Shown here one piece after another: positions 2,367 through 49,892 of a DNA stretch of 64,000 nt. Below the pieces are notes generated by a model. That model did no database searches, was not told the DNA's origin, and saw only the letters and a list, made by a program, of their open reading frames with translations. The position numbers were made by a program, and so were the translations under genes. This DNA comes from Rhodobacterales bacterium. GTDB taxonomy: Bacteria; Pseudomonadota; Alphaproteobacteria; Rhizobiales; Stappiaceae. The first letter of the stretch is position 1, and every line of letters starts with the position of its first letter. The stretch is from positions 124,001-188,000 of the forward strand of contig VIRH01000058.1 in the NCBI GenBank assembly GCA_008107755.1, given 5' to 3'.

Positions 2367-2569
2367 ACATCTGAAACATCTTAATGAACTTCACTCGACA
2401 ACAGCTTTCTTTGTGTAATTCCGCTTCACATTCAATACACCGAAAGATCAGAAGCAAGTTGAAATGCACGCAATAAAGGGGTTTGATAGGTCTATTAAGC
2501 TGCCCTGAATTCGATTCTTGTGGCAGGAGGACCACCACGCGTTTCGAATTCGGACCGCAGGGAGATGAA

Positions 2570-3505
2570 ATGACCGACAGGAACATCGGGAAAACATCGC
2601 TTCCGTGGGGTTACATCCGCGCCGGGGCTCTTGTCGCTTTCGGCATCTTCGTCAATTTCGCTGCAGCGTCCCTCCCCGTTTCCGCGGCAGAACCTTTAAA
2701 TCTGCGCAATCACTTCCTCGGTATCGGAAATTGCCCGCCCTGGCATCCTCAGTCCGTCGAGATCTGCAGACACAGCCTGGAGAAGGTGGTGAGTGCTTTG
2801 GCCCCGCGGATCGGAACCGGGCCCGAGACGACGCACCTTCTGATCAATGAGGGAGCGAGCGCTCCGGCATTGAAACGCAAGGCAATGGAACTGGCGAGCA
2901 AGCTCGGGACAGAAGACCGGCTGATCATCTACGCCAATCTTCCACTCGCCCCCGACGAGGACGCCGGGACGGACGAGTCGACCGGCTTCGCTCTGGAGCT
3001 GTGGGCGGACCAGAAACCCGTTTCGACCGAAGATGCAATCGGAAGCGGCACCTGGATTTCCGCGTCCGCCTTTGCCTCGATGATCCACACCATCTCCGCG
3101 GCCGAGGTCATCCTCATTCTCGATACCAACAATTCCAATGCGGTGAACCTGACCCTCCTGGAAGAAAACACCGTGGATCTCAAGGAACGGCCGGAGGCTC
3201 TCGTCACATCGGCCAGCCCCGGGCAGGCTGCGAACTATTCCGCAGACCGCACCATCTCGCTCTTTGCCAAGCATCTGGCAGCCGCCCTGAACGTTACCGA
3301 AGGTTCTCTACTGGAAGTGATGACCGCAGCGGCTAGCGGCACCCGTCAGGCCGCAATTCCGATCTGTGCCTCCTTGAAGGCCCACAAGAGCGAAGCGGAT
3401 TCCGGTCAGTCAAGCGACTGCACCCAGGTGCCTGAGATCCATGATCCAGACGCGCTGCTCGACCACATCGCTCTTGCGCCGCTTCCTGTTTCGGAAGTGA
3501 ACTAG
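2570..3505 (+). CDS. Secreted caspase-fold protein lacking the catalytic dyad
   Basis: 311 residues from ATG 2570, with GGGAG 5 bases upstream. A signal peptide ends near residue 40 (VSAAEP). The layout follows a caspase p20 domain (peptidase C14): LRNHFLGIGN at 45-54, a predicted helix, THLLINEGAS, then strand DRLIIYANLP (116-125) where active members have YYSGHG, and strand AEVILILDTNNSN (178-190) where active members have DxCxSG, then ALVTSAS (210-216). The His is thus replaced within ANLP and the Cys by Asn, so cysteine-peptidase activity is not expected. Four of its Cys residues (C54, C66, C267, C284) could form disulfides in the periplasm. The family assignment is by pattern only; a role as a pseudo-enzyme or binding scaffold is inference. 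It has no obvious operon partner. Confidence 0.65.
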   Translation: MTDRNIGKTSLPWGYIRAGALVAFGIFVNFAAASLPVSAAEPLNLRNHFLGIGNCPPWHPQSVEICRHSLEKVVSALAPRIGTGPETTHLLINEGASAPALKRKAMELASKLGTEDRLIIYANLPLAPDEDAGTDESTGFALELWADQKPVSTEDAIGSGTWISASAFASMIHTISAAEVILILDTNNSNAVNLTLLEENTVDLKERPEALVTSASPGQAANYSADRTISLFAKHLAAALNVTEGSLLEVMTAAASGTRQAAIPICASLKAHKSEADSGQSSDCTQVPEIHDPDALLDHIALAPLPVSEVN

Positions 3506-3527
3506 CACTTCGAGCAGCTGTTTCAGA

Positions 3528-3545
3528 GCGCCTGGCCGGAGGCGC
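3528..3545 (-). terminator. Possible weak terminator hairpin downstream of the Amt-GGDEF-EAL gene
   Basis: A perfect 6-bp stem GCGCCT/AGGCGC with a six-base loop sits between the convergent stop codons at 3505 and 3568. There is no T tract on either side, so termination is only a possibility. Confidence 0.3.
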
Positions 3546-3567
3546 CAGCGCCGCCCTCCTCCGATTG

Positions 3568-6500
3568 TCAGCTCGCGAGGTATTCCGCGTTTGAATGCTC
3601 GAGGGCCGTCAGTTCACCTCCCTCCAGCTTGTCCAGCGCTTCGCGGACCTCGGGCGGGACGCTGCGGACCAGTTTGTCGACCGGCGCCGGGTGACCGATG
3701 AGGAAGCCTTGAGCCTCATGGCAGCCGCGCTGCGCGAGCAGGCAGAGGATCTCGGTGTCTTCGACGCCTTCGGCCACGACCTCCATCTTGAGTGCCCGGC
3801 CGAGACGCACGACGGTTTCAATGATTGCAAGCGAACCGTAGTTCCTGCGCGCCTCACGGACGAAGGATCGGTCGATCTTGATGCAATCGAACGGGAAGCG
3901 GCTCAGGTAGCTCAAGGAGGAATAACCGACGCCGAAATCATCGAGCGCTATCTTGACGCCGATGGACTTCAGGCGGTTCAGGACTGCGAGAGCGCGTGCA
4001 TCATCCTCAATCAACGTGCTTTCGGTGATTTCAAGCTCGATCCGTTCCGCCGGCACGCCCGACTGCGCGATCGCGTGTTCGACATCGTCGACGAATTCCC
4101 TGTCGCGAAATTGCACCGGACTTACGTTCAGGCTGATATTGGCGGTCGGAATGGCTGAGGAAGCGACCCGCAAGCTTTCCTCAAGCACGTATTTCCCGAT
4201 AGAAACGATCTGCCCCGAAGCTTCGGCAACAGGAATGAAGTCCGACGGATTGACGAGACCTTCGACGGGATGCTTCCAGCGGATAAGCGCCTCGTAACTT
4301 TCGATCTGGCCACGCGCAAGATTGAGGCGCGGCTGGAAATGAAGCTCGAACAGCCCTTCGGCAAGCGCCGTCGTCAGATCCTTTTCCAGTGCGCGGCGCT
4401 GACGGACCTTGTCGCCCATACCATCCTGGAACAGGCAATAGGTGTGCCGTCCAGAGTTCTTCGCATTGTAAAGGGCAATATCCGCATTCGAGATGAGCTG
4501 ATCCTCGCTTTCCTCGCCCTTGATGAGCGCAATGCCGACGCTCGCGCTTGGCTTGAGCACGAGGCCATGTCCGCAGTCGATCGGCTCGGACAGGGCCTGG
4601 ACGAGACGAAGCGCCATGTCTTCGGCCTGGTTTGAGAACTGTATGCCGTTTTGAATGATGGCGAATTCGTCCCCGCCCAGCCGTGACACCGTGTCGCCGA
4701 CACGACTGCAATGCCTCAGGCGGTCCGCCGTCATGCGAATGACCCTGTCGCCAACGGGATGGCCATGAAGATCGTTGATGTCCTTGAACCGATCCAGGTC
4801 GATGAGGAGCAGTGCCCCGGTGCAGCCTGAGCGTTGGCTCTTTTTCGATGCCTGCTTCAACTCGGCATTGAAGACGGCGCGGTTCGGCAGATCGGTGAGC
4901 GGGTCGTGCTGCGCCAGATGAAGGATCTGCGCCTCCGCCTTCTTGCGCTCCCTCAGGTCGACAAGAGCGGACACGCGCGTCGGGACACCTCTATAGGAGA
5001 TCACCCTTGTGCGGATTTCGACCGGCACCTTTTCACCACTGCGGCTGATCAGCGTGATTTCGCGCGGTTCCTTTTCCGCCTTCACCAGATGTTCTTCCAG
5101 CGTCCCTGCCAGCTTGTTCTCGACAAACTCGTAGAGGCCGCGCATTTCCAGTTCATCGATCGAATAGCCGATCAGGTCCTCAAAGGTAGTGTTTCCATCG
5201 AGGATGCGCCCATCCACCGAGATGACGATGGCATCGAAGGTCGCATTGGCAAGGGCGGACAGGCGCTCCGCCTCTTCCTGCGTCCGCCGCGCGTCGGCCG
5301 CCATCAGGTGAGCCTGCTCCTCACTCTGGACTGTGTCTATGAGGGCATTGAAAAGCCTGGTCAGGCGCTCGGAATCGTCGCCGCGGGAGACGTCAAGCCG
5401 CATCGACAGATCGGCCTTCCCCGCAATCAGCTTGTCGAGCGCGTCCTCCACATGACCGATGCCGAGCCGCGTGCCGTGTTCGGCCTCGTTGAGACCGAGG
5501 TCCTCGGCATCCGCACTGAGCCGCATCGGCTGGATCCGGTTGAGCACCGAAAGGATTACCCAACCGGCGCCGAAACACCAGACGAAACAAGCGACGGCCC
5601 CCGACAGCTGCACCCCGAACTGGGGCAGCCTTGCGCCGAGCGGCAGAAGCTCCACCGGTGCGACGAGCGACAGAGCCAGCGTCCCCGCGACACCTGCAAA
5701 GCCGTGAACGCTGATCGCTCCGACCGGATCGTCTATCTTCAGCCCCCGCTCCAGCACCCACGCACCGCCGATGGCGACGACGCCGCCGAGCCCACCGATA
5801 AAGATTGCCCCGGCGGGCGTGACAACGTGACATCCGGCCGTGATCGCAACCAACCCGCCGAGCAGTCCGGAAATGGAATTCTCCGGCAGAATGAACCTGT
5901 CCCGCCATCGCCCGACGATATAGCCCGTTGCGGTACCGGCCGCTGCTGCAAGCACGGTGTTGGCCAGGATACGCGGAACGTCCCAGGACGCCGCCAGGGT
6001 CGAGCCGCCGTTAAACCCCAGCCACCCGACGAAAAGGATCAGGGCACCGGACGTCGCGAGCACAGAGCTGTGCCCCTGGATCCGGCAGGGGCTGCCATCC
6101 TCCGCGAACCGGCCGATACGCGGCCCGAGAAGGACGCAGGCTGCGAGGGAAATCCAGGCGCCTGTGCTATGGACCACCGTAGACCCTGCGAAGTCGACAA
6201 ATCCCCACTCGTGAAGAAACGCTGATGCCTCTGGAAACAGCGCACTCCCCCAGACCCAATGGGCAAACACGGGGTAGATCAGACCCGCGGTCAAAACCGA
6301 GCAGCAAATGTAGGCGGACAGGCGCATGCGTTCAGCGACGGCGCCGGAAATGATTGTCGCCGCGGTGCCGCAGAACATGACCTGAAAGGCGAAGATGGTC
6401 AGTTCCCAGGGATCGAGACCCGACAGTCCGACCAGATGCCAGCCAAATCCGGCGAACCATCCTCCCCCGGGACCGAAGGCGATCGCAAATCCGAATGTCC

Positions 6501-6765
6501 CGAACATCAGGACCGAGACAGCCAGATCGAGCAGGTTCTTCTGGGCGACGTTGATGGAGTTCTTCGACCGTACCAGACCGGCCTCGAGCAACATGAACCC
6601 CACCTGCATGAGCAGCACCAGCCCGGCAGTGACCAGCACCCAGACCATGTCGAGGCTTTTCTGCAGGGATCCGAGATCAACGACCTGTGCAGCCTGCGCG
6701 GCATTTGCCGCAACAAAACCCGCCATTCCCGAAACAATGCCGGCCGCAACCGTGCCCATCCTCAT
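3568..6765 (-). CDS. Ammonium transporter fused to PAS-GGDEF-EAL (c-di-GMP enzyme)
   Basis: 1065 residues if started at ATG 6765, which has GGGGTAGGG 6 bases upstream; the frame stays open to an ATG at 6807 with no ribosome site. The order is: signal or N-terminal hydrophobic segment; Amt/Rh ammonium channel (31-416) with both pore histidines (H199 in VVHST, H354 in SVHGF); HAMP-like or helical linker (437-485); PAS (503-606); GGDEF domain with an intact motif at 697-701 and an RxxD inhibitory site at 688-691; EAL domain with EAL at 825-827 and downstream DDFG and KIDRSF motifs. Both cyclase and phosphodiesterase sites look intact. The plausible role is coupling ammonium sensing or transport to cyclic-di-GMP levels. 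Amt channels fused to signalling output domains are known; which activity dominates here cannot be told. No glnK gene is adjacent. Confidence 0.93.
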   Translation of the reverse strand: MRMGTVAAGIVSGMAGFVAANAAQAAQVVDLGSLQKSLDMVWVLVTAGLVLLMQVGFMLLEAGLVRSKNSINVAQKNLLDLAVSVLMFGTFGFAIAFGPGGGWFAGFGWHLVGLSGLDPWELTIFAFQVMFCGTAATIISGAVAERMRLSAYICCSVLTAGLIYPVFAHWVWGSALFPEASAFLHEWGFVDFAGSTVVHSTGAWISLAACVLLGPRIGRFAEDGSPCRIQGHSSVLATSGALILFVGWLGFNGGSTLAASWDVPRILANTVLAAAAGTATGYIVGRWRDRFILPENSISGLLGGLVAITAGCHVVTPAGAIFIGGLGGVVAIGGAWVLERGLKIDDPVGAISVHGFAGVAGTLALSLVAPVELLPLGARLPQFGVQLSGAVACFVWCFGAGWVILSVLNRIQPMRLSADAEDLGLNEAEHGTRLGIGHVEDALDKLIAGKADLSMRLDVSRGDDSERLTRLFNALIDTVQSEEQAHLMAADARRTQEEAERLSALANATFDAIVISVDGRILDGNTTFEDLIGYSIDELEMRGLYEFVENKLAGTLEEHLVKAEKEPREITLISRSGEKVPVEIRTRVISYRGVPTRVSALVDLRERKKAEAQILHLAQHDPLTDLPNRAVFNAELKQASKKSQRSGCTGALLLIDLDRFKDINDLHGHPVGDRVIRMTADRLRHCSRVGDTVSRLGGDEFAIIQNGIQFSNQAEDMALRLVQALSEPIDCGHGLVLKPSASVGIALIKGEESEDQLISNADIALYNAKNSGRHTYCLFQDGMGDKVRQRRALEKDLTTALAEGLFELHFQPRLNLARGQIESYEALIRWKHPVEGLVNPSDFIPVAEASGQIVSIGKYVLEESLRVASSAIPTANISLNVSPVQFRDREFVDDVEHAIAQSGVPAERIELEITESTLIEDDARALAVLNRLKSIGVKIALDDFGVGYSSLSYLSRFPFDCIKIDRSFVREARRNYGSLAIIETVVRLGRALKMEVVAEGVEDTEILCLLAQRGCHEAQGFLIGHPAPVDKLVRSVPPEVREALDKLEGGELTALEHSNAEYLAS

Positions 6766-7184
6766 GCGCAACCCTACCCCTGAAAACAGGGGCATGATCA
6801 GGAGCATAGGTTAACTAAACATTGCTATTTCTGCCTATGTCGAGGGGCGTGAATGTCTGCTTATTTGTTGTCCATCTCAGCAGGTTGGATGACTTCAAGT
6901 ATCGAGATTTCAAGGTGCTGGTTTTTATCGTGGTTTTCGAACTACCCCTAAGGCATATTCATCGCCTTCAGCGCCTGTGACGCAGAAGACAGCGGCCTAA
7001 AATATGTGCATCCAGCCCTGCCTCTGGGGCAGACGATTTCGCGTTGCTGACGCTTCACACGACAAAAAACGCGAATCCTCTTCGTTACGATGGTCGCCCG
7101 GAGCGCCGCAGATGAGAAGAGCGCATGCAAAAAAGGCGGCCAATGGCCGCCTTTTCGCAAATCTTCCGTTCTATCCGGACGGGA
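6766..7184. other. Non-coding interval between ilvD and the Amt-GGDEF-EAL gene
   Basis: About 420 bases that hold the ilvD terminator at the right end and, presumably, the promoter of the leftward Amt-GGDEF-EAL gene. The ORFs crossing it are low-complexity and lack ribosome sites. I see no convincing sigma-54 or NtrC sites by eye. Confidence 0.6.
7129..7156 (-). terminator. Terminator of ilvD
   Basis: Stem AAAAGGCGGCC/GGCCGCCTTTT with a tiny AT loop. On the minus strand the stem ends in a T run. It lies about 30 bases after the ilvD stop. Confidence 0.85.
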
Positions 7185-9029
7185 TCAGTCAACTTCGCGA
7201 ACCGCTCCCTTGGAGGCGCTCGTCGTCATTTTGGCGTAGGCGCGCAGAGCCTTGGACACCTTGCGCTTTCGTTTCTCGACCGGCTTCCAGGCCTCATCGC
7301 CCTTGTCTTCCATGGCCGTGCGGCGGCTGGCAAGTTCGTTGTCCGGAATATCGACCTTCAGCACCCGGTTCGGAATGTCGATGACGATCGTGTCGCCCTC
7401 CTCAACCAGTCCGATGGCACCGCCTTCAGCAGCTTCCGGCGAAATATGACCGATGGAGAGACCGGACGAGCCGCCTGAGAAACGGCCGTCGGTGATCAGC
7501 GCACACGCCTTTCCGAGCCCCTTCGACTTCAGATAACTGGTCGGGTAGAGCATCTCCTGCATGCCGGGTCCGCCGCGCGGTCCTTCGTAGCGGATCAGCA
7601 CAACGTCGCCTTCCTTGACCTTGTTGGTCAGGATTGCGGACACAGCACTGTCCTGGCTCTCGAAGATGCGGGCCGGACCGGAGAAGGTCAGGATGCTCTC
7701 GTCGACACCTGCGGTCTTAACCACGCAGCCATCCTCGGCGATATTGCCGTAGAGAACGGCAAGACCGCCGTCGTTGCTGTAGGCATGTTCCTTGTTGCGG
7801 ATCACACCGGACTTTCGGTCGAGATCAAGGTCGTCCCAGCGGCGATCCTGACTGAACGCGACCTGCGTCGGTACACCGCCGGGCGCTGCACGGAAGAACT
7901 CGTGAACGCTCTCGGAATTTGTCTGCGTGATATCCCAGTGCGAAAGCGCTTCCTTCATGCTGGCCGAATGGATCGTCGGAACGTCGGAATGCAGCAACCC
8001 TGCCCGGTCCAGCTCGCCGAGGATCGACATGATGCCGCCAGCGCGATGGACGTCTTCCATATGGATGTTCTCGACGGCCGGAGCGACCTTGCAGAGCACC
8101 GGCACCTGCTTTGACAGACGATCGATGTCATCCATCTTGAAGCCGACTTCACCCTCGTAGGACGCCGCCAGAAGGTGAAGGATCGTATTGGTCGAACCGC
8201 CCATGGAAATGTCGAGGCTCATGGCGTTTTCAAACGCCTTGAAGCTGGCGACATTGCGCGGCAGAACGCTTTCGTCTTCCTGTTCGTAATAGCGCTTTGC
8301 GAGATCCACGATCAGGTGCCCGGCTTCCACGAACAGACGCTCGCGGTCCGCATGGGTGGCAAGCGTTGAGCCGTTGCCGGGCAGCGCCAGGCCAAGAGCT
8401 TCCGTCAGACAGTTCATGGAGTTGGCGGTAAACATGCCCGAACAGGACCCGCAGGTCGGGCATGCATTCTGTTCCATGGTCAGGACGTCGGCATCCGACA
8501 TCCGGTCATCAGCTGCGGCAACCATCGCGTCGATGAGGTCGACGGACTTGGCGACGCCGTTTTCCAGAACCACCTTGCCTGCTTCCATCGGACCGCCGGA
8601 CACGAAGACGACCGGAATGTTCAGCCGCATGGCCGCATTCAGCATGCCCGGTGTGATCTTGTCGCAGTTCGAAATGCACACGAGTGCGTCGGCGCAATGG
8701 CCGTTGACCATATATTCGACCGCATCCGCGATGACTTCGCGCGATGGCAGCGAATAGAGCATGCCGTCATGACCCATGGCGATGCCGTCATCAACGGCGA
8801 TCGTATTGAATTCCTTCGCGACACCGCCAGCCTTTTCAACTTCGCGGGCCACGAGCTGGCCGAGATCCTTCAGGTGCACATGGCCCGGAACGAACTGCGT
8901 GAAGGAATTGGCGATGGCAATGATCGGCTTGCCGAAATCATCGTCCTTCATGCCGGTGGCGCGCCATAGACCGCGCGCGCCCGCCATGTTGCGGCCGTGG
9001 GTCGAGGTTCTGGAACGATACGGAGGCAT
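7185..9029 (-). CDS. ilvD: Dihydroxy-acid dehydratase
   Basis: 614 residues, full family length. It dehydrates 2,3-dihydroxy-isovalerate and 2,3-dihydroxy-3-methylvalerate to the keto acids that precede valine, leucine and isoleucine. The start [21 protein letters not shown] is canonical, with GGGAG about 8 bases before the ATG. Iron-sulfur ligands are seen in CISNCDK and [10 protein letters not shown], and the family segments [19 protein letters not shown] and the C-terminal [11 protein letters not shown] are present. It is a single-gene transcription unit bounded by its own terminator and a 330-base upstream gap. No leader peptide rich in branched-chain residues was recognised. Confidence 0.98.
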
Positions 9030-11311: not shown

Positions 11312-12517
11312 CTACATCCGGCATGACCCGGCGTAGGAATCGCCAAGATCGTCAAAGACCCTTGCCACCGCTTCCATTTCGTAGAGACGGCTGGTCCGAC
11401 GGACCGCTTCGGTCAGGAAGAAATCCTGGATGGGAAACTGGTTGGTATTGAACCTGAAATCGCCCCGCACGCTTTCGAACGGCGCCGCCTGAAGCGCATT
11501 GGCGAGAACGTTCGCGTCCTTGATGCCGCCGGTGAATTCGATGGCAAAATGGATCAGCTTGCCGGCATCGAACCCTTCCGCGGCATAGACGGAGGGTGCG
11601 TATCCGTATTTGCGGCTGAACTCCCTGACGAACCGCTTGTTGGTCGGGTTGTCGAGATTGGGAGCCCAGTGAGAGGCAGAGAAAAGCCCTTCGGCCTGCT
11701 CCTTGGTGTACGGCAGGCTGACCGCATTGATGGTGTTGGTCGACAGGAGCGGGACGATGCCCTTCAGTCCTGAGTCGTTAAACTGCCTCACGAGTTCGAC
11801 CCCCATGCCCGCCGGCATGTAGACGAACACCGCATCCGGTTCGATTTCCGCGATCTGGGCGATCTCTTCAGAGAAATCGACCTGGCCCAGCTTTGGGTAG
11901 AGTTCGCGGGAAATCTGCCCTCGATAATGCTGACGGAACGCCTCGACAGCGGCCCGAGACGCGTCGAAATCCGGCGCGAGAGTAACGATGTTGTCGTAGT
12001 TCTTGAGGCTGGCGTATCGCCCCATCGTCTCGTTCGCCTGATCGTCCTGGGCGCCGACGGAAAAGAAATAGCGGCTGCATCCTCTGCCCGCGATTGCGCC
12101 GGGACCGGAATGTGTTCCGATGAAAAGCGTATTGGTGCGCACGACAGGATCGTGCACGGCATTCATGACCTTCGAGAAATTCACGCCGACAAGGATGTCG
12201 ATACCGTTTTCCTCGATGAGTTTGGTCACCTGTTCCAGCGCGTAGTCCGGATCAAGCTTGTCGTCGACGACAATGACCCTTGTCTCCAGACCGCCAAGCG
12301 CTCCGTTGGACTGATCGACCGCGAGCATGAAGCCGTCACGCAGGTGCTCGCCATAGACGGCTGCCGGGCCGGAAAGGGTCGCCATCAGCCCGATCCGCAG
12401 CACGGGCGGCTCCTGCGCTGCCGCACCGCCTGCGCCGATGGCGAGGCCAACGCCGATGGCTGTGCCGAGACAGATGCATTCACCAAGGCGCTTGAAAAAA
12501 GACAGCACCGGTTTCAT
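11312..12517 (-). CDS. Periplasmic Leu/Ile/Val-type binding protein (orphan)
   Basis: 401 residues from ATG 12517, chosen because it is followed by a signal peptide (KRLGECICLGTAIGVGLAIGAGGAAAQ). The frame stays open upstream to 12703, but that extension is not signal-like. The mature part is a type I periplasmic binding protein: LRIGLMATLSGPAAVYGEHLRDGF, VIVVDDKLDPDYALEQVTKLIEENGIDILVGVNFS and SVYAAEGFDAGKLI are classic for HAAT-family receptors of branched-chain amino acids, amides or aromatic acids. No livH/M/G/F permease or ATPase genes are adjacent, so it either works with a transporter elsewhere or is a receptor for a signalling protein. The ligand is unknown. Confidence 0.9.
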   Translation of the reverse strand: MKPVLSFFKRLGECICLGTAIGVGLAIGAGGAAAQEPPVLRIGLMATLSGPAAVYGEHLRDGFMLAVDQSNGALGGLETRVIVVDDKLDPDYALEQVTKLIEENGIDILVGVNFSKVMNAVHDPVVRTNTLFIGTHSGPGAIAGRGCSRYFFSVGAQDDQANETMGRYASLKNYDNIVTLAPDFDASRAAVEAFRQHYRGQISRELYPKLGQVDFSEEIAQIAEIEPDAVFVYMPAGMGVELVRQFNDSGLKGIVPLLSTNTINAVSLPYTKEQAEGLFSASHWAPNLDNPTNKRFVREFSRKYGYAPSVYAAEGFDAGKLIHFAIEFTGGIKDANVLANALQAAPFESVRGDFRFNTNQFPIQDFFLTEAVRRTSRLYEMEAVARVFDDLGDSYAGSCRM

Positions 12518-12967
12518 GGACGGAAGCCGGAGCGCGTCAGAAGGAGCGCACCCAGAGCCACGCGGGTCCTTCGGACCGTCCTGGAGCGCCAAAGGCGCAC
12601 GCAAACCCGCTCTCCTGGTGATGTGTTGCCACGTCCGAACCCACGTCGTCATCATTTCCGAAACCACATCCCGGTATTCAACTTCAGGGCAACACGGCTG
12701 CACTCAGCCCTTGCGCACTGAAACTTCCCTCAATTGAATCAATCATCGCAAAGACTGGTTAGGCATTTGCAAACAGAAGGCCTTTTCTACACTGCACCGC
12801 CATAATTAACCCAAAATTCCTCAGTACCGCCGCAATCCGGCCTGTCTCCCGTCGCAATGGCCGAGACTAATAGACATGCTTGAGGGTCGATGCGACTTGC
12901 ATCCCGACACGGCCCTTTCAGACCACAGCACCGTGCGTGCCGGATCCCGCAAAATCAGGAGGGCCAA
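12518..12967. other. Non-coding interval, divergent promoters
   Basis: 450 bases between the leftward binding-protein gene and the rightward SH3-protein gene. The first 186 bases are an in-frame open extension of the binding-protein gene and could be coding if a far upstream start is used. I see no repeat or RNA element in the rest. Confidence 0.5.
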
Positions 12968-14179
12968 ATGTATTCAAGTTCAGCGCCAGCCACAGCTTGC
13001 GACAACGACGCAGACCTAAGCACGGACAATGCACATCCTTCCAGAGCCAGAAACGACCTGAAGATCGTCGGCCTCGAGAGCAACTCCGCGACGCCGCCCA
13101 CGAACCAGGATGCTGCTGAAGCTGAAAAATCCGAGCCGGAAACAAACCTCATTGCGGCAAAGATCCTGAAAATGCATGCTTCGGCCGAAGACAACGCCCA
13201 TGACGACGCGCGCCCGTCCGGCGCCGATCATGGCGGCGTGCAGGAGGGCCCCGACATCCGCCCGTTTTCCGAAATGCCGAGCCTCCTGCGCCGAGAAATG
13301 GATGGCGCGGATGAGCTGGACCAAATCGAAACCGATGCCTCCGACTGGACGCCCGAAAGGCGCTCGGCAAAACGAAGTTCCAGACCGGCAGGCAACGGAC
13401 CGAGCTTTCGTACGCTCGTCGTCAGCACCATCGTCGTCGTTGTTGCTGGCGGCGCGGCCATGGCTTTGGGCCTCCGAGACTTCGTGCGCCGGGACGACAC
13501 ATCGTCCATTTCAGCGCAGACCCAGACCCCTGCCGCAGAGCCGACGATCGAAAGCCTGATCGCGGATGGCTCCGAGGCTGGCGCCCTGGAGATACCGACC
13601 AATTCGGACGGGTCGCCGACGGCCAATCAGATTGCAAGCGCCAAGGAACAGATCCGCCGCGCGCTAAATGATGGACTGGCCGGAAAACCGGTCGCCGTGA
13701 CGGGAAGTCCGGACCTGCAGAACGGAACCACCGAGACCTCGGACGGCAAGATCCAGGCACGCCTTGTTCCCGCACCTGCTCCGGCAGCGTCGGCCACCGG
13801 CGAACCGAGGCAGATCCGTCAGGGCACCATTCGGGTCTCCAATCGTGCGGCAGCCGCAGACGCCACCGGCGATGCTGCTCTGATGGAGGAAGGGGATCCC
13901 ATCCTGCCGGGGTCTGACGATGCTCTGGCCGACGAGAGCGGCTCCACGCAGGCGACGGAAACGGCCGCGCTGAACGGCTCCTTCCCCCACACAGGCAAGA
14001 CTGTCAGCGCGGTCAACATGCGCCAGTCCGCCGAATCCGGAGCTGAGGTGATTGCGGTCGTCCCCGGTAGTGCCGAAGTGCGCTACAGCCAGTGCGGCGA
14101 ATGGTGGTGCAACATCAGCTACGATGGAAAGTCAGGCTATATCAGCGCCCGGTTCCTGGACCAAACGGCTCAAAACTGA
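12968..14179 (+). CDS. Single-pass membrane protein with C-terminal bacterial SH3 domain
   Basis: 403 residues from ATG 12968, with a strong AGGAGGG 4-5 bases upstream. Residues 1-149 are polar, acidic and low-complexity (likely cytoplasmic and disordered). Residues 150-168 are one transmembrane helix. Residues 170-345 are a Pro/Ala/Thr-rich spacer. Residues 346-399 form an SH3-like domain (AVNMRQSAESGAEVI, then a C-x4-C pair, then GYISARFL). Such SH3 domains usually bind cell-wall peptides in the periplasm. The long cytoplasmic tail is unusual and has no recognised domain. The gene upstream is divergent and the next gene also encodes an exported protein. Confidence 0.85.
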   Translation: MYSSSAPATACDNDADLSTDNAHPSRARNDLKIVGLESNSATPPTNQDAAEAEKSEPETNLIAAKILKMHASAEDNAHDDARPSGADHGGVQEGPDIRPFSEMPSLLRREMDGADELDQIETDASDWTPERRSAKRSSRPAGNGPSFRTLVVSTIVVVVAGGAAMALGLRDFVRRDDTSSISAQTQTPAAEPTIESLIADGSEAGALEIPTNSDGSPTANQIASAKEQIRRALNDGLAGKPVAVTGSPDLQNGTTETSDGKIQARLVPAPAPAASATGEPRQIRQGTIRVSNRAAAADATGDAALMEEGDPILPGSDDALADESGSTQATETAALNGSFPHTGKTVSAVNMRQSAESGAEVIAVVPGSAEVRYSQCGEWWCNISYDGKSGYISARFLDQTAQN

Positions 14180-14330
14180 AAAGGCCGAATCCCGCCAAAA
14201 TTGGTAGCGGCTTATTAAGCGCAAGCGCCTATCCTACCCCGTGAAAGTGTCGACCTGGAAGGCCGACACGAATTCAGCACCGCGTGCCGCAACCGGCTAT
14301 CGGACTGTTCAGCATTTACGGGAGATGTCC

Positions 14331-14822
14331 ATGAAGGCCCGCCCATTCCTGACCGTTTCAGCGCTCGCAGCGCTCTTCGGCGCTGCCCTGCCCGCCCATG
14401 CCGACGGCACAGACTGCGTCGTCTACGCAACAGATTATGCCAATGCACATTCCGGGAACGGTGATCCCGTCGGGGATATGGTCTCAAATGGAATGACGGG
14501 GGCTGTGGCCGGAGGGGCCTGGGCTGGCCACGGCGGTGCGGTAAGAGGCGCGCGCGCCGGTGCAGCACTCGGCGCCCTGAACAATATGGGAGCCTACCCG
14601 GGCGGATGGCAGGCGCTCTATGACATGGCCTATCAGATGTGCCAGCAGCAACAGCAAAACGCAGCCGTCGCCGCACCGGCCTACGGATCCCCCTACTATC
14701 CCGGCGCCAACCTCGGCGCGCCCCAGCCGGACTGCAGATCGACCGCAACCGTGAACGCGCCCTTGAAACGCGCACCGGACGGAACGATCATGGCCGGATC
14801 CGGCTTTGGCAGCTGCCGGTAG
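14331..14822 (+). CDS. Secreted cysteine-containing protein with Gly-rich segment
   Basis: 163 residues from ATG 14331 (GGGAG 6 bases upstream; an ATG at 14325 is also in frame). Residues 1-24 are a signal peptide ending PAHA. The mature protein has four Cys (29, 104, 135, 162), enough for two disulfides, and a Gly/Ala-rich stretch at 53-90 (NGMTGAVAGGAWAGHGG..., ARAGAALGAL) resembling a glycine zipper that can insert in or line membranes. Then comes a Gln run (105-109). I do not recognise a named family. It lies between two genes for envelope proteins. Confidence 0.75.
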   Translation: MKARPFLTVSALAALFGAALPAHADGTDCVVYATDYANAHSGNGDPVGDMVSNGMTGAVAGGAWAGHGGAVRGARAGAALGALNNMGAYPGGWQALYDMAYQMCQQQQQNAAVAAPAYGSPYYPGANLGAPQPDCRSTATVNAPLKRAPDGTIMAGSGFGSCR

Positions 14823-14993
14823 CAGCTATCGTCCACAATCACGGACAGGGGCACAACGGCGCCCTTCGCGGAGCGCGATCGCGCGCCGGACGGTTGACGG
14901 CATCACTCAACCATTGTCATTGATTGTGATTAATCGCACGGCCTGCGGAAACTGATTCCGCATCGGCAACCATTCAAGACGACAGGACACTTC

Positions 14994-16187
14994 ATGACCC
15001 GCCGGTCTCTCTCCGTTTCCACATTTGCTCTCGCCCTCACCGGCCTGACTCTTTGCACCACTCCAGTGCTTGCCCAGCAGTGCGGCGGCGATTTCCGCCA
15101 GTTCCTGGCCGGTGTGAAGCAGGAAGCGGTCTCGAAAGGCCTTTCCGAACGGGCAGCCGACCAGACCCTTGCCGGCGCTCAGTTGGACCGGAAAGTCCTG
15201 GCCCGGGACCGGGCACAGGGCGTCTTCAAGATGACGTTCCTGGAATTCTCGAAACGCGTCATCTCCAACTACCGGATGAAGAATGGCGCTGCGAACATGC
15301 AGAAATACGCGGCGATTTTCGATCGGACCGAACGGGAATACGGCGTCCCGGCCCCGGTGATCACCGCCTTCTGGGCCCTGGAAACGGACTTTGGTGCGGT
15401 TCAGGGTGACTTCAACACCGTCAATGCCCTGGCAACGCTTGCCCATGACTGCCGCCGCCCCGAATTGTTTCGCCCGCAGCTGATTGCCGCCATCGAGATG
15501 GTGCAGCACGGTGACCTGGACCCCAGAAACACCACGGGTGCCTGGGCCGGTGAAATCGGCATGGTCCAGATGCTGCCGGAGGACATCATCAAGTTCGGCC
15601 GTGACGGAGATGGCGACGGGCATGTGCGCCTCAAGCAAAGCGCACCCGATGCGATCCTGACCGCCGGCGCCTTCATTCAGCATCTAGGCTGGCGGAAGGG
15701 TGAACCATGGCTTCAGGAAGTCACGGTGCCGCAGAACCTCGACTGGGGCGAAACAGGCCTCGACACGACCAAGACCGGCTCGCAATGGGCCTCTCTCGGG
15801 GTGAAATCGCGTTGGGGTGAGATTTCGCCGAACCTTCCAGCCTCGCTGTTGCTGCCGCAGGGTCGCAAGGGGCCGGCATTCCTGGCCTATCCGAACTATT
15901 CCATCTATCTGGAATGGAACCAGTCATTCATCTACACAACGTCTGCCGCCTATTTCGCGACCCGTCTGGCCGGCGCACCGCGTTACAACGAGGGCAATCC
16001 CGATCCCGGATTGAACGATGCGCAGATGAAGCAGCTCCAGTCGAAGCTGGCCGGGATGGGATATGATGTCGGAAAGATTGACGGAATCCTCGGCTCCGGG
16101 ACCCGCGGCGCGGTTCAGGACGTGCAGCGCAAGATGGGATTGCCCGCAGATGCCTGGCCGACTCCCGATCTTTTGAACCGGCTCTGA
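14994..16187 (+). CDS. Lytic murein transglycosylase, MltB type, with peptidoglycan-binding domain
   Basis: 397 residues. A signal peptide ends at AQQC (residues 1-27), with the Cys at 30. Residues ~30-325 are an SLT_2/MltB-family catalytic domain: catalytic Glu130 in FWALETDFG, the VNALATLAHD segment, and AGEIGMVQMLPEDIIKFGRDGDGDG. Residues ~335-397 form a peptidoglycan-binding domain 1 (QLQSKLAGMGYDVGKIDGILGSGT). It cleaves the glycan strand between MurNAc and GlcNAc, leaving 1,6-anhydroMurNAc, in cell-wall turnover. It is followed by a strong hairpin and is probably monocistronic. Confidence 0.93.
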   Translation: MTRRSLSVSTFALALTGLTLCTTPVLAQQCGGDFRQFLAGVKQEAVSKGLSERAADQTLAGAQLDRKVLARDRAQGVFKMTFLEFSKRVISNYRMKNGAANMQKYAAIFDRTEREYGVPAPVITAFWALETDFGAVQGDFNTVNALATLAHDCRRPELFRPQLIAAIEMVQHGDLDPRNTTGAWAGEIGMVQMLPEDIIKFGRDGDGDGHVRLKQSAPDAILTAGAFIQHLGWRKGEPWLQEVTVPQNLDWGETGLDTTKTGSQWASLGVKSRWGEISPNLPASLLLPQGRKGPAFLAYPNYSIYLEWNQSFIYTTSAAYFATRLAGAPRYNEGNPDPGLNDAQMKQLQSKLAGMGYDVGKIDGILGSGTRGAVQDVQRKMGLPADAWPTPDLLNRL

Positions 16188-31278: not shown

Positions 31279-31555
31279 GTGCGCGTCTCACCATTGCACG
31301 CAGCCGATCCGCAGACAGCCGATAAATGGCGCGATCGGAACGGCCCTTGCCGAACCGTCGCCTCCGCGGTGTGAGACACCTTGAGGCAACCCATACCGAA
31401 GCCCCCCGGGCTGGGGATGAGATTTTCACGCTGGAAGAAGCAAAAATGGTCGGCGGGAACACGGCAAACGAGGAGGCCACTCTTCGGCCGGTTCCCTGCC
31501 GACCTGCCCCACGGACCCAGGAGATGCGGCGGACCTGAGCACTCCGAGGGGAATT

Positions 31556-48122: not shown

Positions 48123-49892
48123 TCAGGCTGCTTCGTCGTCAGCCCGGGCTTCGGCTGCGGCCTTTTCCGCAGCTGCGGCTTCTGCAGCAAGCCGCTCGCG
48201 CTCGCGCGCTTCGTCCTCGATACGCTCGGAGAACGCAATGAACTCGTCTGCCGGCATCGGCGCAGCGAAGTAATAGCCCTGCGCTGCGGTCACGCCGAGT
48301 TCCAGAAGACGTTCTATCTGCTCTTCCTGCTCCACGCCCTCTGCGATGATGCCCATGCCGAGATTATCGGCAAGTTCGACCATCGAATCGACGATCGTGG
48401 TCGAGTTGTCGTCGGAGCTGATGGAATCGATGAACATCTTGTCGATCTTGATGATGTCGACACCAAGCTTCTGAAGATAGGCCATGCCGCCGTGTCCCGT
48501 TCCCACGTCATCGAGTGCGACGCGGACACCCAGGGCCTGAAGCTCCGCAATGATCTTGCGTGCCAGTTCCATATCCTGGAGCGGATGGCGCTCGGTCACT
48601 TCGACGACGATCTGCTGGAACGAAATTCTCGACTTTTCGAAAATCGATCTGATATCGGCGATCACCTCGCGGTCGAGGAAGTGGCCCGCAAACAGGTTGA
48701 TCGAGATCTTCATATCCGGATTGTCGCCGTAGAGATCCCCGACCTCTTCGGAGGCAACCCGCATGATGTGGCGGGTCATGCCGAAGATGTGGCCATTGTT
48801 CTCCGCATAGGCCATGAACTGACCGGGAGAGACAATCACGCCATTCGGGCGCCGCCACCGCATGAGAACCTCACAGCCGCGCAGGCGCTGGGACTCGATA
48901 TCCATGACCGGCTGGTAGTAGGGCACGAACTCACCGTTGCGGATCGCGGCCGCGAACTCGTCACTCGCCTCGCTCTCCGGTCGCCACGACAGCCAGATAC
49001 CGATGGCAACAAACAGGATCGCGACGCCGGCGCAGGCAGCTGCCGCGACCACCTTCAGATCCTGAACGACGATCAGCGCAGCCGACACGGGGGCCGTGAC
49101 GGTCGCAACGAGCGGGTAAAGTTCGGATGAGACCTGCACCGTCAGTGCGGTGCCTGGCTCGCTTCCCTCGGAATTGTATCCACCGACGCTGTACCAGAGC
49201 AGATTGTTGCCGAGACGCAGTTCCGAACGTCGGTAGGATCGCAGGTATTCCGGCCCAGGGTCCAGTGCGATCACCGACGGCGTGACTTCGGCGAACAGCC
49301 GGGTCTGGTCTTTGAGGTCCCAACTGATGACCGCTGCGCGCGCTCCAAGATAATTCCGGTCAAGCATGCCGATACCGACCAACGGGCCGTCACTGCGCAG
49401 CGGCGGAAGTATCGTCTGGCCTGCAAGCTCCCTGTCCGGGACGACGCACATCCGCCGGCCCGCGGCGTCGGCGAGGCCGATGGCATCAATCATGCCGTTC
49501 TCGACCACAAGCTTCTCGAAAATCACTCTGTCTTCGGCGCTGCAGGTCTGCACCTCATCGCGATCAAGTCGCTGAAGCAACGTCACCGTGGAGCTGATCG
49601 CTTCCTCCGCCCGGCGGATGGTGGACTGCCCCATCGCCTCCATTTCGGTGACGGCTCGGCGCTCGGCATACTGATTGAGTATGATATTGATTGCAAAAAG
49701 GGGCGTCATCGCCAGAACAAGAGCGATCAATACCGTTTTCGCAAAACCGATATACCGAAGGGACAAAATGCCAGCCTGTTGATGAATAACCTTTTGCGAC
49801 CATGTCTTATCTAGGTAAACAAGGACTGAATGCGTGCGTTTTTCATCCAGATCAAAGCGCCTTTTCGACAGGTGATCCAGGATCGAAACCAC
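48123..49892 (-). CDS. CSS-type membrane EAL phosphodiesterase
   Basis: 589 residues if the first ATG is used. That start lies 28 bases from the divergent pfkB start; a TTG at about 49766 would begin right at TM1 and leave room for promoters. TM1 ~51-72, a periplasmic domain with C117 in QTCSAED and C149 in RRMCVVP (the CSS-motif layout, though the third residue is Ala), TM2 ~280-303, then an EAL domain. The signature reads E341-V-L, and DDVGTG (461-466), KIDKMF and QGYYFAAP are present, so c-di-GMP hydrolysis is plausible. In E. coli, CSS-EAL enzymes respond to periplasmic thiol status. The C-terminal 30 residues are Ala/Glu-rich. Confidence 0.88.
   Translation of the reverse strand: MVSILDHLSKRRFDLDEKRTHSVLVYLDKTWSQKVIHQQAGILSLRYIGFAKTVLIALVLAMTPLFAINIILNQYAERRAVTEMEAMGQSTIRRAEEAISSTVTLLQRLDRDEVQTCSAEDRVIFEKLVVENGMIDAIGLADAAGRRMCVVPDRELAGQTILPPLRSDGPLVGIGMLDRNYLGARAAVISWDLKDQTRLFAEVTPSVIALDPGPEYLRSYRRSELRLGNNLLWYSVGGYNSEGSEPGTALTVQVSSELYPLVATVTAPVSAALIVVQDLKVVAAAACAGVAILFVAIGIWLSWRPESEASDEFAAAIRNGEFVPYYQPVMDIESQRLRGCEVLMRWRRPNGVIVSPGQFMAYAENNGHIFGMTRHIMRVASEEVGDLYGDNPDMKISINLFAGHFLDREVIADIRSIFEKSRISFQQIVVEVTERHPLQDMELARKIIAELQALGVRVALDDVGTGHGGMAYLQKLGVDIIKIDKMFIDSISSDDNSTTIVDSMVELADNLGMGIIAEGVEQEEQIERLLELGVTAAQGYYFAAPMPADEFIAFSERIEDEARERERLAAEAAAAEKAAAEARADDEAA

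Follow-up and report, generated by a model that had tools for sequence, protein, structure and literature searches.

What does an ammonium transporter (Amt) domain do when it is built into a protein that also carries the enzymes for making and breaking cyclic di-GMP (c-di-GMP)? This question is raised by a gene of a marine Rhodobacterales bacterium (family Stappiaceae), located on the reverse strand of a 64,000-nucleotide stretch (contig VIRH01000058.1 of assembly GCA_008107755.1, positions 124,001 to 188,000) that we will call the window. The gene encodes a fusion of Amt, PAS, GGDEF and EAL domains. In a preliminary description made from the DNA alone, it was viewed as an ammonium-responsive channel with c-di-GMP output. 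The domains stood up to our analysis, while the channel was reinterpreted as a receptor, because the Amt part belongs to the sensor-Amt clade, ends in a GLN tail and is encoded on a contig without a P-II gene. Judging from sequence comparisons, the fusion protein is quite probably an inner-membrane ammonium receptor of this clade which controls c-di-GMP turnover.

The gene lies in a single uninterrupted frame of 1079 codons (3568-6807, reverse strand; open reading frame (ORF) and translation check). Residue numbers below run from the ATG at 6807. Pfam found Ammonium_transp (residues 55-446, E 1.3e-101), PAS_9 (525-618, E 6.8e-8), GGDEF (632-788, E 2.3e-42) and EAL (809-1040, E 5.5e-68), in this order. 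Together with the residue alignment and the intact ORF, this agrees with the domain order and motifs described earlier. An in-frame ATG at 6765 corresponds to residue 15; as AGGGGTAGGG precedes it and several relatives begin close by in the alignment, 6765 is a reasonable start codon. The features, all on the reverse strand, are these:

3568-6765, reverse strand: gene for the Amt-HAMP-like-PAS-GGDEF-EAL protein (ORF, Pfam; another ATG upstream at 6807)
6676-6765, reverse strand: N-terminal leader, residues 15-44, which we take to resemble a signal peptide (sequence; low-confidence stretch in the AlphaFold2 model)
5464-6675, reverse strand: sensor-type Amt domain, residues 45-448 (Pfam, comparison with solved Amts)
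6526-6606, reverse strand: Q68, E75, N91 and D94, corresponding to Q24, E31, N47 and D50 of the Ks-Amt5 intramembrane ammonium site (alignment)
6346-6357, reverse strand: T151 and S154, corresponding to Ks-Amt5 T109 and T112 (alignment)
6169-6171, reverse strand: pore histidine H213, Ks-Amt5 H171 (alignment)
5704-5706, reverse strand: pore histidine H368, Ks-Amt5 H326 (alignment)
5467-5496, reverse strand: Amt C-terminal tail GLNEAEHGTR, residues 438-447, including N440 (alignment)
5251-5463, reverse strand: HAMP-like two-helix linker and long helix, residues 449-519 (model, profile comparisons)
4954-5235, reverse strand: PAS domain, residues 525-618 (Pfam)
4444-4914, reverse strand: GGDEF domain, residues 632-788 (Pfam, alignment)
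4693-4704, reverse strand: RxxD (RVGD), residues 702-705 (alignment)
4663-4677, reverse strand: GGDEF motif, residues 711-715 (alignment)
3688-4383, reverse strand: EAL domain, residues 809-1040 (Pfam, alignment)

The Amt domain is complete. Its alignment to solved Amts places the Phe gate at F145/F265, the filter at W186/S269 and, as noted previously, both histidines of the pore pair at H213/H368. By sequence and structure comparison, its closest solved relatives are the sensor Amts Ks-Amt5 and Sd-Amt1, not the assimilatory channels. In an 87-row tree it shares with them a clade of 73 rows (SH-aLRT, the Shimodaira-Hasegawa-like approximate likelihood ratio test, 95; quick search, no bootstrap), and a first, earlier tree gave this grouping an SH-aLRT of 89. 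The 87-row tree includes 16 rows added out of the best 80 related loci and excludes L099 and, as redundant, L056, L096, L119 and rows from another 20 loci; in the reference rows L096 and L146 the Amt part is gapped or incomplete. Compared with the two-ammonium site of Ks-Amt5, five of seven residues are identical (T112 is replaced by S and T51 by L), and the full site was present in 106 of 115 fused Amt rows.

Among the features compared, the tail residue N440 splits fused from standalone Amts best. At its position 108 of 111 fused rows have N (two have D and one a gap), whereas D is found in 38 of 40 standalone rows that carry the QEND residues (one T, one N) and in all 31 other standalone and transporter rows. 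Excluded from this count were L056 (E at that place), L096 (gap) and L119, as well as L121, L122 (repeats L044), L123 and L129 (repeats L053), whose genomes were already represented. The GLD-type tail with a final Y, typical of assimilatory AmtB, is absent from the fusion protein, which has GLNEAEHGTRLG there. Both fused rows that have D are fusions to methyl-accepting chemotaxis proteins (MCPs) from Orenia and Halonatronum; they keep an entire transporter-like tail, fall outside the main sensor clade in the 87-row tree and seem to have arisen by a separate fusion.

Several observations weigh against a receptor. The tail N characterizes the clade rather than fusion as such, given that D is retained in these two MCP fusions, which lie outside the clade; the 87-row tree that defines the clade came from a quick search with long-branch warnings. 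Every channel motif is intact in the fusion protein, its NCBIfam score exceeds the cut-off for the ammonium transporter subfamily, and of the three residues that narrow the Ks-Amt5 pore it lacks two (Y30, here L74, and F34, here L78). The full ammonium site also occurs in 38 of 69 standalone Amts; 25 of the 38 have a P-II gene no more than 2 kb away and are therefore probably transporters. Thus, the site residues do not demonstrate a loss of transport, and the idea that they alone identify a non-conducting sensor was rejected. A long loop 5 was likewise dismissed as a sensor mark, as its lengths do not split the groups (sensor rows have 18-22 residues, the family's standalone Amts 19-20, and Af-Amt1 and AmtB 15 each). 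Finally, Pfam detected no HAMP domain in the fusion protein's own linker, and an hhalign comparison of 16 linkers of GGDEF-EAL fusions with seven HAMPs of the same genome gave a weak probability of 27.6%.

The intact His pair, gate and filter, the missing pore-narrowing residues and the site shared with Amts beside P-II genes would all suit a transceptor, in which the Amt part conducts ammonium and signalling is a by-product of transport, as the preliminary description had it. Such a role has been called likely for AmtE of Azoarcus olearius (PMC8467165). However, the clade of the fusion protein includes Ks-Amt5, a protein without efficient translocation, and its tail is altered where most standalone Amts examined show GLD and the final Y. 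Moreover, apart from the fusion gene the 6.1-Mb genome (152 contigs) has a single Amt gene, which lies on contig C67 with a P-II gene adjacent; two P-II genes were found in the genome (C67 and C109) and none on C65, the contig of the fusion gene. We consider a transceptor unlikely, and favour a receptor that would bind ammonium without transporting it efficiently.

As for the outputs, all residues examined are present in both domains, their catalytic assignment being our assumption; in the EAL domain these are E839, N894, E926, D956, D957, K977, E1013 and Q1033. The pore and catalytic residues are thus not lost on alignment, and the GGDEF domain with RxxD, the EAL domain with its key motifs and the putative c-di-GMP output of the preliminary description all hold. 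We aligned the output sites of P0001 and 50 other Amt-GGDEF-EAL rows (L122 included beside L044), which are kin, so that counts do not represent independent events. G712, D713, E714, F715, D670, N678 and D679 are conserved in all 51 rows, while the first G of the motif is A in one of them (L047). The EAL residues are conserved in 50 rows (the exception, L101, has two changes) and the RxxD arginine in 43; 50 rows retain both output sites intact. The host genome has 23 EAL places. Three of the other 22 lack a GGDEF match and one (L234) could not be aligned, leaving 18 GGDEF-EAL paralogues for comparison; both sites are intact in ten of these (two read SGDEF), and RxxD is present in one, with an alignment that is gappy around this motif. 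The suggestion that intact dual sites are unusual was therefore discarded. By these alignments it is RxxD that is the less usual feature (43/51 against 1/18, the latter from the gappy paralogue alignment).

One dominant activity is common in GGDEF-EAL hybrids, and the best NCBIfam match of the cytoplasmic part, below cut-off, is the phosphodiesterase DibA. Accordingly, the protein might be an ammonium receptor with a single active output, most likely phosphodiesterase, with its GGDEF kept as a regulatory domain that binds GTP. The retention of the GGDEF residues in every fusion row and of RxxD in most of them, compared with the single paralogue, suggests instead that synthesis matters, albeit in rows that are related and not independent. 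We regard a single output as a real possibility, with a chance somewhat below even. Two further c-di-GMP proteins were observed along the way. The window encodes at 48123-49892 a second c-di-GMP gene product, an EAL protein lacking a GGDEF match. In the Amt-like-PAS-GGDEF-EAL protein at L056:3575-6862, the Amt part is degenerate (second pore His replaced by Y, Phe gate by L, site lost) and the output residues are intact.

The linker, proposed earlier to be HAMP-like, has no Pfam match in the fusion protein itself, and the evidence for this character is indirect. Out of 26 aligned linkers (16 from GGDEF-EAL fusions and ten from MCP fusions), 13 matched Pfam HAMP with E up to 0.1 (best 2.2e-8). 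A HAMP match with E 2.6e-4 was seen in a homologue, L048. An AlphaFold2 model from 32 sequences (mean pLDDT 88.9, confident Amt domain) places a short helix at 451-461 and a long one at 480-519 ahead of PAS, GGDEF and EAL; its pTM of 0.52 makes the relative placement of domains unreliable. A HAMP linker is reportedly present in Sd-Amt1, according to its 2024 abstract.

We envisage that external ammonium would enter the Amt vestibule and be bound near the His pair at the intramembrane site (Q68, E75, N91, D94, T151, S154), instead of being mainly carried across. The signal might then travel from helix 11 along the GLN-type tail to the HAMP-like helix pair, the PAS coil and the GGDEF-EAL pair, and shift the balance between c-di-GMP synthesis and hydrolysis, with RxxD capping synthesis. 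With Sd-Amt1 for a model, our guess leans very slightly towards ammonium favouring synthesis. Alternatively, the signal could enter through the PAS domain found by Pfam, with the Amt part as no more than an anchor; L056, with its degenerate Amt, retains PAS-GGDEF-EAL. However, the full ammonium site persists in nearly all fused rows, as counted above, and the same Amt module feeds MCP, kinase, SpoIIE and cyclase outputs without a PAS domain in Pfam (members tested). We hold this alternative to be very improbable, and return to the ammonium receptor.

The variety of outputs joined to this module is considerable. Sensor-type Amts were found fused to HisKA kinases (five by Pfam, 23 by phmmer), to a HisKA_3 kinase (L172; Pfam or local search), to a SpoIIE phosphatase domain in Pelagibacteraceae (SAR11; L143:4965-7127 and L153:4986-7118), to a class III adenylate/guanylate cyclase domain in a metagenome-assembled genome of Leptospiraceae (L154:3464-5533) and to GGDEF alone (L138). 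In another seven rows of Pelagibacteraceae, 705-761 residues long, the other outputs were not matched, though Pfam was not applied to these. Amt-MCP fusions occur at L051-L055, L127-L132, L174 and L197 (L052 also with PilZ) and are candidate ammonium chemoreceptors; L051-L055 represent five genomes of the family, for which DNA was retrieved and tested with Pfam. The first tree placed an Amt-PAS-PAS ORF that stops ahead of any GGDEF (L099:3946-6078) together with complete Amt-GGDEF-EAL proteins.

In the 87-row tree, alphaproteobacterial GGDEF-EAL fusions nest with MCP fusions, and the other GGDEF-EAL fusions are placed among kinase, GGDEF, SpoIIE and cyclase fusions. Forcing the 33 GGDEF-EAL rows into one clade costs 183 log-likelihood units (approximately unbiased (AU) test, p 3.55e-8), in a test made on a quick tree with some long branches and with a group defined after the first tree had been seen. 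As the GGDEF-EAL fusions do not form one clade in this test, outputs have, on the sequence data, been exchanged repeatedly within the sensor-Amt clade; these data are silent on the first output. A bolder interpretation, which we offer tentatively and think rather doubtful, is that the Amt fold founded a general receptor clade, marked by the tail N, whose members have been linked to kinases, chemoreceptors, phosphatases, class III cyclases, diguanylate cyclases and dual cyclase/phosphodiesterases, no fewer than six kinds of output. In the fusion protein a trimeric receptor would then drive dimeric enzymes, and the retained pair of catalytic sites together with RxxD would provide two-way, product-limited ammonium set-point control of c-di-GMP.

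Is such a fusion rare? The preliminary description had called it uncommon, and this was not borne out. A close homologue (E 1.5e-164 or lower, open frame of more than 1050 residues) is present in 36 of 87 family genomes, the host included: 27 of 45 in the same genus and nine of 42 in other genera. In one of the 36 (G047) the homologue carries an internal stop. Full gene DNA from 18 other genomes (19 genes) gave PAS, GGDEF and EAL matches in all 19. Relatives of the Amt part (E up to 1e-72) were found in 32 of 385 genomes of the class and 24 of 398 of the phylum, the host being counted in both. One genome contains two Amt-PAS-GGDEF-EAL paralogues on the same strand with about 4 kb between them (L039:4606-7845 and 11999-15214). 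The fusion protein is a well-preserved member of an already known, little-studied kind of sensor Amt with dual c-di-GMP output that is common in close relatives, and its interest lies in the clade and its tail signature.

Among known systems, Sd-Amt1 of Shewanella denitrificans (PDB 8qj3, 8qj4, 8qpf; entry titles name a receptor in ON and OFF states) likewise joins a sensor-type Amt to a cytoplasmic GGDEF domain and has the ammonium-site residues and GLN tail in common with the fusion protein. Its chain, however, is 644-661 residues long without a PAS or EAL match, and in the 87-row tree the Amt domains of the two proteins fall into different main branches. Ks-Amt5 of Kuenenia stuttgartiensis (6eu6) resembles the fusion protein in its Amt fold, in the His pair and gate, in most residues of the two-ammonium site and in a covalently joined cytoplasmic transducer, but its output is a histidine kinase, and its Y30, F34 and ligand T51 are replaced in the fusion protein. 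E. coli AmtB has the same fold and pore residues but differs in its GLD-type tail, its P-II partner GlnK and a score about half that of the sensor Amts. For the cytoplasmic part, the top Foldseek match is the PAS-GGDEF-EAL protein PA0861 of Pseudomonas aeruginosa (5xge; RbdA), with 28% identity and no Amt in the solved portion.

Among the matches listed, AmtE was the only Amt-GGDEF/EAL precedent in print; we make no claim that the output types are unpublished. AmtE, compared by its published description only, is an Amt fused to GGDEF/EAL whose expression was enhanced 36-fold (PMC8467165). In its passages on the subject, a review of prokaryotic ammonium transporters covers Ks-Amt5 and does not mention GGDEF, diguanylate or c-di-GMP (PMC10433425), and the main text of two c-di-GMP surveys mentions neither Amt nor ammonium (PMC9756655, PMC5845226). 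We found no assay of the SAR11 Amt-SpoIIE or the Amt-MCP relatives in the literature searched, where only the MCP type was specifically sought.

The fusion gene is flanked by a dihydroxy-acid dehydratase gene and by a convergent 340-aa ORF without a Pfam match (window 2483-3505). Across 25 loci of GGDEF-EAL relatives, ilvD was present in at least nine, a trpE-like gene in at least 11 and the 340-aa ORF in at least nine, these being lower bounds as the loci end within a few kilobases; a conserved operon was rejected on these counts. Matches to a sigma-54 site numbered seven in the window against 11.4 expected, with none between 6807 and 7185, so that an upstream site was also rejected, and promoter and terminator scans of 3400-7200 stayed at chance level. 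Plasmid carriage was discarded as well, since none of the eight matching plasmid records (E up to 1e-100) covers 80% of the query. Elsewhere in the window, positions 31443-31554 (reverse strand) match the EcpR1 small RNA in Rfam (95.8 bits).

If the receptor interpretation is true, external ammonium would be tied to c-di-GMP in a genus known for many c-di-GMP genes; high numbers of such genes are given for Roseibium and Labrenzia in one of the surveys (PMC9756655). Judging by the SAR11 Amt-SpoIIE and Amt-MCP relatives, ammonium sensing may be coupled to other outputs too. The clade-wide change of the tail provides a concrete hypothesis for the conversion of a transporter into a receptor, and the fusion protein would offer a system in which receptor and channel use of one fold could be tested by residue swaps.
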